Source: Candidatus Neoanaerotignum tabaqchaliae
GTDB taxonomy: Bacteria; Bacillota; Clostridia; Lachnospirales; Anaerotignaceae
DNA: 33,612 nt
Assembly (NCBI GenBank): GCA_904420235.1
Contig: CAJFUS010000020.1
Location: forward strand, 1-33,612
Reading direction: 5' to 3'
A model generated the notes under the pieces. It did not search any database. It was not told the origin of the DNA and worked only from the letters and a program-made list of their open reading frames with translations. A program made the translations under genes and the position numbers. Below, piece after piece: positions 29,690-33,541 of the stretch (its first letter is position 1; every line of letters begins with the position of its first letter).

Positions 29690-31045
29690 TTAAAAATTTC
29701 TAACCATATTGGCAAATTTTGTATATTGCCCAAGCCACATAAGGTCTACCGTTCCCGTCGGACCGTTCCTTTGCTTGGCTATTATAAGCTCAGCTTGATT
29801 CTTCTTTTCCGTATCGGGGAAATAGTACTCGTCCCTATAAAGAAAAGTAACCACATCGGCGTCCTGTTCTATGGCTCCAGATTCTCTAAGGTCTGACAAC
29901 ATAGGTCTGTGGTCGGTTCTTGTTTCGCAAGCCCTGCTTAACTGTGAAAGAGCTATAACTGGGGCATTCATTTCCCTTGCCACAGCCTTAAGCGCCCTTG
30001 ATATTTCTGATATTTCCTGCTGGCGGGACTCCGTTTTAGAATCAGAACTCATAAGCTGAAGATAATCTATAAGTATAAGACCTATTCCACGCTCCAGTTT
30101 AAGCTTTCTGCATTTTGCCCTTATGTCCATAGGCGACACTCCAGGGGTATCGTCTATATATATTTCAGCCTGAGAAAGGGGTCCTATTGCCTGTATAAGC
30201 TTAGGCCAATCCTCATCGGCAAGCTCGCCGGTTCTAAGTTTCTGGGCGTCAACCATAGCTTCTGAACAAAGCATACGGTTAACAAGCTGTTCCTTCGACA
30301 TTTCCAAAGAAAATATGGCAACAGGCACATTGTTTCTTATGGCTGCATTTTGGGCTATATTAAGGGCAAAAGCTGTTTTTCCCATAGACGGCCTTGCGGC
30401 TATCAATATTAAATCAGAAGGCTGAAGTCCGGCCGTTTTCATATCAAAATCGGCAAAGCCAGTTGGAACGCCCGTAAGCTTTCCCTTATTTTTGTAGATA
30501 TCCTCTATACGCTCAAAAGCCGAAACCGCCACATCTCGTACATGGAATATGCCGCTTGAGCTTCGGCCTTCCATTACATTAAATATTCCCTGCTCTGCCC
30601 TGTCTAATATGTTGTTTATTGTATCGTTTCCCTCAAAGCATTGCTGGGTTATATCGCCGGCAGTTTTTATAAGCTCCCTTAAAACCGCCTTATCTTTAAC
30701 TATCTTGGCGTAATTCTTTATGTTTACCGAACTTCCAACAGAAGAGGCAACCTGTCCTATATAGGCCACGCCTCCAACCTGTTCAAAAACGCCTCTTTCC
30801 TCCAGACGGTTTTTAATTGTTATAATATCTATCGGCTCGCCCTTGGCAAATAAATCCAGAGCCGCCTCAAATATAAGCTTGTTGTCAGGCCTGTAAAAAT
30901 CGTCGGCTTTCAAAATTTCCATTGCCGTCGAAACAGCCTCACGGTCAATAAACATAGAGCTTAAAACGGCGCGTTCAGCCTCTGCGTCATGGGGCGGCGT
31001 TTTTTGGAAGTAAGAGAGGGACTGCCCGCTTTCTTCCATTTTCAT
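29690..31045 (-). CDS. dnaB: Replicative DNA helicase
   Basis: 451 aa; PPHDAEAERAVLSSMF, LILIAARPSMGKTAFALNIAQNAA, LILIDYLQLM, LSDLRESGAIEQDADVV. Confidence 0.97.
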   Translation of the reverse strand: MKMEESGQSLSYFQKTPPHDAEAERAVLSSMFIDREAVSTAMEILKADDFYRPDNKLIFEAALDLFAKGEPIDIITIKNRLEERGVFEQVGGVAYIGQVASSVGSSVNIKNYAKIVKDKAVLRELIKTAGDITQQCFEGNDTINNILDRAEQGIFNVMEGRSSSGIFHVRDVAVSAFERIEDIYKNKGKLTGVPTGFADFDMKTAGLQPSDLILIAARPSMGKTAFALNIAQNAAIRNNVPVAIFSLEMSKEQLVNRMLCSEAMVDAQKLRTGELADEDWPKLIQAIGPLSQAEIYIDDTPGVSPMDIRAKCRKLKLERGIGLILIDYLQLMSSDSKTESRQQEISEISRALKAVAREMNAPVIALSQLSRACETRTDHRPMLSDLRESGAIEQDADVVTFLYRDEYYFPDTEKKNQAELIIAKQRNGPTGTVDLMWLGQYTKFANMVRNF

Positions 31046-31067: not shown

Positions 31068-31514
31068 TTATCCTTCCGAAATAACAACCGTAATCTCTGC
31101 GCTTACCTCTGGATGAAGTTTTGCCGTAACATGTCTTGTGCCAACCATTTTAATAGGGTCGGCTATAACTATTTTTTTCTTGTCAACCTTAAGACCGGTC
31201 TGCTCCTCAATGGCAGCCGATATTTCCTTATTTGTAACAGAGCCGAATACCCTTCCATTGTCTCCTGTTTTAACCGAAACATTCACTTTAACACTCTCAA
31301 GCTTTGCGGCAAGCTCTTTAGCTGCGGCAAGCTCCTGTGCTTTTCTCTTTTCCTCGGCCATTTTCTGAAGCTTAAGATTATTCAAATTATCATTTGTGGC
31401 TTCAACAGCTAATTTTTTTGGTATAAGGAAATTGTTGGCATATCCGTCGCTGGCATTTACAAGCTGTCCTTTTTTTCCAGCACCCTTAACATCTTGAAGA
31501 AGTATTACTTTCAT
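31068..31514 (-). CDS. rplI: 50S ribosomal protein L9 (bL9)
   Basis: [40 protein letters not shown]; second ATG (31514) has better RBS spacing (ggaggt) than 31520. Confidence 0.96.
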
Positions 31515-32688
31515 TTTCATCTACCTCCAGCAAATATTCATCAACTGCTTCTTTAAGCAGCTCTTCTACATTTAAAATACTTTTTCCCTCAAACTGCGCT
31601 CCCGCCATGGCGCTGTGGCCGCCACCGCCTACTTTTTTAAGTATGGCCTGAACGTCAACATCTCCGTTGCTTCTAGCGCTTACATATACCATGCCTGAGT
31701 ATTGGCACAAAACAAACGACGCCTTTACACCCTTAACGCCCAGAAGTTCGTCAGCCGCCCTTGCGCAGGCAAGATATATATTTTTATGACTCTCCTCACA
31801 CTTTGAGAATATAATTCCATCTTTATATATAACAGAGTTCTCAACCGCACCTGCCTTAGCTCTCTCAAGACGCATTGTGCTTTTAAAAAGGTTACGCACA
31901 ACTGAGCTGTCGGCGCCGCAGCGGCAAAGATAAGCCGCCGTTAAAAATACATGCTCTCCCGAATTAACGCCAAAATCCCTTGTGTCAACCACAATACCAG
32001 CCAACATGGCCTCAGCCTCAACGGGACGTATATATATGTTAAGGTCCATCAATATAGAAGCTACAATCTCGCATGTAGAGGAATACTCGGTTTTAACACA
32101 AACAATATCAGCCTTGGCAATATCGTCAAAACCGTTTTTGTGGTGGTCTATTATAAGCCTCTTTCCAGCTTTTTCATATATTTCATATTTTTCGATAATG
32201 TCTTTTGAATGCGTGTCAAGTACTACAACAAGAGAATTTTCACTTACCATGCTGTCAGCCTTATGTGCCGGTATAAATACTCCGTCATAAGCCCCATCTA
32301 TAAGGAATTTGTCATATATGTCTTTAACCGCAAACACATCAATGCCCATAACAATAAAGCATTTCTTTTTATGTTTGCGGCATAGGGCATAAATTCCAGC
32401 GCAGGCACCGAAGCTATCAAAATCAGCTCTTTTGTGCCCCATTAAAAATACATTTTCCGCCTTTTTAACAATATTTTCTATCTCCGCAGATATTTCTTCA
32501 TTTTTAATATTGACAGGCTGCAAAAAACCTATTGCCCCGAACAAAGCCGCAGCCAGTAAAAATAAACACCCTGCTAAATAATATGATATGTCATACCTAA
32601 AAACAAAGCATACCGCGGAAATTAAAATAAATACTGCAAAAGCGGTTTTTGAAACAGCACCCGATGGAAAATGGAACATTTTTTTCAT
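31486..32688 (-). CDS. Short GdpP-like DHH/DHHA1 phosphodiesterase with two N-terminal TM segments
   Basis: [53 protein letters not shown] motifs; gene order DHH-rplI-dnaB matches gdpP loci; no PAS/GGDEF-sized region. Start at 32688 preferred (gcggagg upstream); track ORF runs to 32709. Confidence 0.9.
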
Positions 32689-32702
32689 TCCACAAGCCTC
32701 CG

Positions 32703-33527
32703 CTACCATTTTATTATGTCATAAGTTCCCAAGAGTTTAAAGAAATTTGTTTTTCTTTCCAGCATTTTAAGGGCGTCAATTCTGTCATTTATGTTATCAC
32801 ACTCCAAGTCTATATAAAATATATAGGCTCCAAGATGGTCCTTCATTGGTCTTGACTCTATTTTAGTAAGGTTTATGTCCCATATAGACAATATATCAAG
32901 GGCTTTATACAGCTCTCCCGGTTTGTGGTCTATTGAAAAAACAAGACTTGTTTTTCCTTTTCTTGTTATGCCGGTATCCTGCTTTGAAACCGCAAAAAAC
33001 CTTGTTTCATTGTGGCTTTTATCCTGTATGCCTTTTTCAACTATACTAAGTCCATAAATCTCAGCCGCCGATTCAGTTGAAACAGCAAAATAATTTTTAT
33101 CGCTTTCACTTACAATTTTTGCCGCCTCAGAGTTTGACAAGACCTGAATTGTCTCAACATTTTCATAATGTTCCTCAAGATATTTTCGGCACTGTGCAAG
33201 AGACTGAGGGTGCGAGAATATTTTTTCCGGATATTTGCCCACACATTCTGCACGAGTCATTAAATTGTGGCGTATAGGCACTGTAATCTCCGCCTTAATA
33301 AAAAGCTCTACATCAAATATAAGAGAATCCAGCGTAAAATTAACAGTTCCTTCTATGGAATTTTCAAAAGGCACAACGCCCTCGTCAACATCGCCGTTCT
33401 CAACGGCCTTAAGCACGTCCGTTATTTTAGAAAAGGGCACAATATCACATACTCCCGCGTTTTTGGCATATTTAACGGCCGCCATTTGAGAAAATGTTCC
33501 CTCAGGCCCAAGATAGCCTATCTTCAT
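32703..33527 (-). CDS. pheA: Prephenate dehydratase
   Basis: MKIGYLGPEGTFSQMAAVKY, VPFENSIEGTVNFTLD, HPQSLAQCRKYLEEHY, HNETRFFAVSK, SLVFSIDHKPGELYKALDILSIWDINLTKIESRP. Confidence 0.96.
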   Translation of the reverse strand: MKIGYLGPEGTFSQMAAVKYAKNAGVCDIVPFSKITDVLKAVENGDVDEGVVPFENSIEGTVNFTLDSLIFDVELFIKAEITVPIRHNLMTRAECVGKYPEKIFSHPQSLAQCRKYLEEHYENVETIQVLSNSEAAKIVSESDKNYFAVSTESAAEIYGLSIVEKGIQDKSHNETRFFAVSKQDTGITRKGKTSLVFSIDHKPGELYKALDILSIWDINLTKIESRPMKDHLGAYIFYIDLECDNINDRIDALKMLERKTNFFKLLGTYDIIKW

Positions 33528-33541
33528 ACTCAAAAAATCAC

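Follow-up and report, generated by a model that had tools for sequence, protein, structure and literature searches.

The window is the whole 33,612-nucleotide stretch of contig CAJFUS010000020.1 from Candidatus Neoanaerotignum tabaqchaliae, and it contains a short gdpP gene in the order pheA-gdpP-rplI-dnaB (Table 1). The frame that opens at ATG 32688, after the pheA stop, is the likely gdpP coding sequence because a GGAGG precedes this codon and because the resulting length resembles the 384-397 aa of relatives. The arrangement is conserved. In the five other members of the genus, gdpP immediately follows pheA and is immediately followed by rplI and dnaB (5/5); a long-form relative has the complete four-gene order as well, and this order is documented at loci L010-L014, L048 and L058. 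In the source species, the 3′ end of gdpP (31486-31514) and the start of rplI share 29 nt, and gdpP is about 10 codons longer at this end than its counterparts in relatives.

Table 1. Genes, domains and catalytic motifs at the gdpP locus of the window (positions count from the first letter of the window; TM, transmembrane)
Feature	Position	Strand	Remarks
Short gdpP coding sequence	31486..32688	(-)	400 aa; GGAGG 8 nt before ATG at 32688
Alternative gdpP start	ATG 32709	(-)	407-aa reading
Likely Shine-Dalgarno GGAGG of gdpP	32697..32701	(-)	from sequence
pheA (prephenate dehydratase)	32703..33533	(-)	upstream neighbour of gdpP; conserved synteny
rplI (L9)	31068..31514	(-)	downstream neighbour of gdpP
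dnaB (replicative helicase)	29690..31045	(-)	downstream neighbour
TM helix 1	32602..32664	(-)	residues 16-36 (407-aa numbering); AlphaFold/DSSP, hydropathy
TM helix 2	32521..32586	(-)	residues 42-63 (407-aa numbering); hydropathy, AlphaFold/DSSP
DHH domain, PF01368	31993..32454	(-)	residues 86-239; Pfam
DHHA1 domain, PF02272	31537..31770	(-)	residues 314-391; Pfam
Motif GHKRADFD	32416..32439	(-)	metal ligands H92, D96, D98
Motif DTH	32209..32217	(-)	residues 165-167
Motif DHH	32140..32148	(-)	residues 188-190
Motif VDT	31981..31989	(-)	residues 241-243
Motif GGGGH	31615..31629	(-)	residues 361-365

Canonical GdpP is a protein of about 650 aa that comprises two TM segments, a PAS domain, a degenerate GGDEF domain and the catalytic DHH and DHHA1 domains. 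In the short protein, Pfam recognizes DHH (E 8.6e-20) and DHHA1 (7.2e-13) and no further domain even at E<=1, so that PAS and GGDEF are absent; long-form relatives match GGDEF_GdpP (PF24898) at 1e-26 to 1e-31. Hydropathy and the AlphaFold model (mean pLDDT 85) agree on two TM helices separated by a short turn and followed directly by the DHH/DHHA1 fold, and the sequence leaves no room for a PAS or GGDEF domain between them. The catalytic histidine is residue 85 in the short form versus about 341-358 in intact long forms. All five catalytic motifs are kept in the six members of the genus, with GHRRADFD as a variant in one genome. The first-pass annotation, made from the letters of the window, had proposed a TM-DHH-DHHA1 protein without PAS or GGDEF at these same coordinates, with GHKRADFD near residue 85 right after the TM segments, the other motifs intact, and a conserved gdpP-rplI-dnaB locus. 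Each of these proposals holds, and pheA can be added on the upstream side.

On sequence grounds the short protein is a GdpP orthologue, although it falls outside a strict definition of GdpP that demands the full architecture. It groups with the GdpP sequences, lies in gdpP-rplI-dnaB synteny and combines two N-terminal TM helices with a DHH-DHHA1 unit carrying GHxxxDxD, DTH, DHH, VDT and GGGGH. All these traits are common to GdpP/YybT of B. subtilis and S. aureus, from which it differs by the missing PAS and degenerate GGDEF (~260 residues) and by changes at several GdpP-invariant residues. Its best sequence match in the PDB is the catalytic domain of S. aureus GdpP (5XSI, E 9e-43), followed by a longer c-di-AMP phosphodiesterase construct (9N0L, 3e-34), and its top four fold matches are GdpP; the overlay of the AlphaFold model on whole PDB chains gives an rmsd of about 10 Å, probably owing to the DHH/DHHA1 hinge. 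Stand-alone phosphodiesterases and NrnA reach only about 1e-11 to 1e-13. The DhhP/Pde2/NrnA enzymes share the catalytic fold and likewise have neither PAS nor GGDEF, but they are soluble proteins devoid of TM helices, and their E-values stand at about 1e-11 against 1e-43 for GdpP. The best match among NCBIfam models is PRK14538 (signalling protein-L9), a partial hit that scores far under the model cut-off; NrnA scores lower still (77.5 bits for a cut-off of 350). In the tree of catalytic regions, the branch of NrnA is very long, and no use was made of its exact point of attachment.

The source genome also encodes an NrnA beside truB, a RecJ, a DHH-type pyrophosphatase and a second stand-alone DHH/DHHA1 protein of 331 aa (L005:675-1670), distinct from NrnA. 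A full-length GdpP was found elsewhere in none of the short-form genomes, the source genome included, and the source genome has no detached GGDEF_GdpP (PF24898) as a separate gene. The scenario of a paralogue accompanied by a second, complete GdpP was rejected for want of that second GdpP.

The short form is carried by a few related gut-type bacteria of the order Lachnospirales. Among 52 genomes of the family, a form of 384-400 aa occupies this locus in all six of the source genus, among them that of the isolate Lachnospiraceae bacterium NSJ-143; the remaining genomes with a match nearly all have an open frame of 648-742 aa, and in nearly every other genus of the family a GdpP of ~650-690 aa stands at this locus. 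A seventh copy with the short architecture, in a genome of a neighbouring genus (G035, L048:1484-2651), is split by a frameshift into 164 and 236 aa, and its DTH reads DAN. A scan of 393 genomes from the order and another of 393 from the class, completed by a recheck of 80 genomes with weak or no matches, yielded no other intact form of ~400 aa among the matches listed (the best ~155 of each large scan). These matches include a few frames of odd length, such as those of G152 (459 aa) and G717 (479 aa), and rare short forms may occur elsewhere. Other candidates were discarded on follow-up: in G004 a frameshift interrupts a long form (L047), and the frames of G655, G012 and G017 are cut off by the ends of their contigs.

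In a tree of pheA, rplI and dnaB, the six genomes of the genus and G035 form one clade (support 100/99), nested beside the long-form genomes G051 and G050; deeper joins are weaker (91/97 and 81/84). Since the short-form genomes thus form one clade inside long-form genera, a single event is the simplest account, and the sequences fit best with ~260 residues having been lost once, in place, in an ancestor shared by the genus and its neighbour. The shift of the catalytic histidine puts the loss at about 256-273 residues, with a C-terminal part of unchanged length, and the RARVKA stretch that is invariant before DHH in long forms has gone with the lost part. The orthologous locus, the placement in the GdpP clade and the nesting among long forms bear out the earlier suggestion of domain loss rather than an unrelated paralogue.

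The reading we favour, with a probability of roughly 0.7, is that of a membrane-bound GdpP orthologue which, after this single loss, would still cut c-di-AMP, now free of PAS/GGDEF control. The lost part would comprise the linker, PAS, the degenerate GGDEF and the helix that connects GGDEF with DHH, and the two TM helices would now tether the DHH-DHHA1 unit to the membrane with no module in between. There, the two-metal DHH centre and the nucleotide-binding lobe of DHHA1 most likely cut c-di-AMP to pApA. We infer that the damping or sensing exerted by PAS and GGDEF would be gone, and that control would then rest with expression, with PgpH as second phosphodiesterase and with (p)ppGpp to whatever extent it competes at the active site.

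Published truncations disagree on what such a loss entails, at least as reported or cited in PMC10243994. On its own, the DHH-DHHA1 part of the E. faecalis enzyme has about 13 times the activity of full-length GdpP (PMC10243994), and PAS removal alone is cited there as having no effect in S. pneumoniae, so that 'less regulated' may mean little in vivo. M. bovis GdpP is active without a PAS domain (PMC10720645). The heme, nucleotide and ppGpp inputs had all been predicted to be lost in the short protein. This applies to heme sensing by PAS and to the nucleotide input of GGDEF, since both domains are absent. It does not extend to ppGpp: (p)ppGpp is a reported competitive inhibitor of catalysis (PMC12072042) and inhibits the pApA step of the M. 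bovis enzyme (PMC10720645), so that loss of this control cannot be assumed, and both the DHH-DHHA1 unit and Rel are kept.

Since the loss, the catalytic region has diverged unusually fast, and faster than its neighbours. The ratio of short-to-long over long-to-long mean identity is 0.69 for this region versus 0.88-0.92 for RplI, DnaB and PheA, and in the catalytic tree a long stem (branch 0.71) leads to the short clade. Long forms have 77 conserved positions, 45 of which every short form retains; the other 32 are not fully kept. Changes affect residues after DHH (the flanking R and K), the HEPYASS stretch, and N352D and E358K beside GGGGH; the Asn and Glu altered in the last two are also present in S. 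aureus GdpP, according to the alignment. Given these changes at GdpP-conserved residues and the faster divergence, the specificity of the enzyme may have shifted. Taken further, this leads to a second reading, in which a repurposed, membrane-tethered phosphodiesterase would have evolved fast towards a new substrate balance, acting for example on pApA or nanoRNA or taking c-di-AMP straight to AMP, with PgpH, which is kept, as the main opener of c-di-AMP. The change of N352 in DHHA1 to the D found in NrnA points the same way, as does work cited in PMC7570391, in which one substitution in the nucleotide-binding site is reported to enable GdpP to cut pApA. Against it, the genome already has NrnA and the second stand-alone DHH/DHHA1 protein, the short protein is far nearer to GdpP than to NrnA, and the membrane anchor is retained; a full change of role of this kind is rather unlikely.

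Redundancy within the c-di-AMP pathway bears on how the loss could be tolerated. The source genome has a CdaA gene followed by a YbbR-like CdaR gene, and one PgpH, encoded separately from gdpP; every relative checked has both PgpH and Rel. The source genome has three RelA/SpoT-domain proteins (G000:C35, C202, C223), namely one long Rel and two small alarmone synthetases, versus two in other members of the genus. In the family member G049, a genome search detected no gdpP; its rplI-dnaB locus (L067, G049:C91) is without pheA-gdpP, and PgpH is retained. The absence in G049, together with the frameshifted, DTH-altered copy of G035, indicates that GdpP is probably dispensable in the family, where it appears partly redundant with PgpH, and domain loss may therefore have been tolerated. 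The c-di-AMP riboswitch RF00379 was not found in 11 genomes, hence no regulatory link to it.

The same observations, with PgpH retained throughout, could describe a dispensable GdpP under relaxed constraint that loses domains, then its reading frame, then the gene. Such a course has little probability for the source genus, where close pairs of short forms give dN/dS values of 0.04-0.08, like those of long forms, which places the short gene under purifying selection, and where the motifs are fully intact in six genomes; the G035 frameshift, seen in one assembly, could be decay or a sequencing error. Scarcely credible is an assembly deletion, or the arrival of an unrelated NrnA/DhhP paralogue at this position; this reading has nothing in its favour beyond a draft source assembly in 248 contigs and is contradicted by the same short form in six independent assemblies, one from an isolate, by GdpP clade placement and synteny, and by the lack of a second GdpP.

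This lineage amounts to a natural experiment in which PAS and GGDEF have been deleted at the native locus of an enzyme kept under purifying selection, and the cultured isolate NSJ-143 and close long-form relatives offer a comparison. It also shows that a GdpP may be reduced in length, and seemingly dispensed with, in genomes that retain PgpH. A literature search, with most subscription journals outside its reach, found no description of a natural TM-DHH-DHHA1 GdpP orthologue at the gdpP locus. Soluble enzymes consisting of DHH-DHHA1 alone have been described, as has GdpP without PAS: the Mycoplasma bovis protein (PMC10720645) is, like the short protein, membrane-anchored and without a recognizable PAS, but at 666 aa it keeps the GGDEF-like part that the short protein lacks.

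Another lineage-specific domain loss is seen in family f9 of the order, where a GdpP of ~565-575 aa at the rplI-dnaB locus (L051, L052, L053 and L054) has no TM helices and keeps GGDEF_GdpP and a PAS-like start. The part lost is the opposite of that missing from the short protein, and the loss of the TM helices suggests a cytosolic enzyme.
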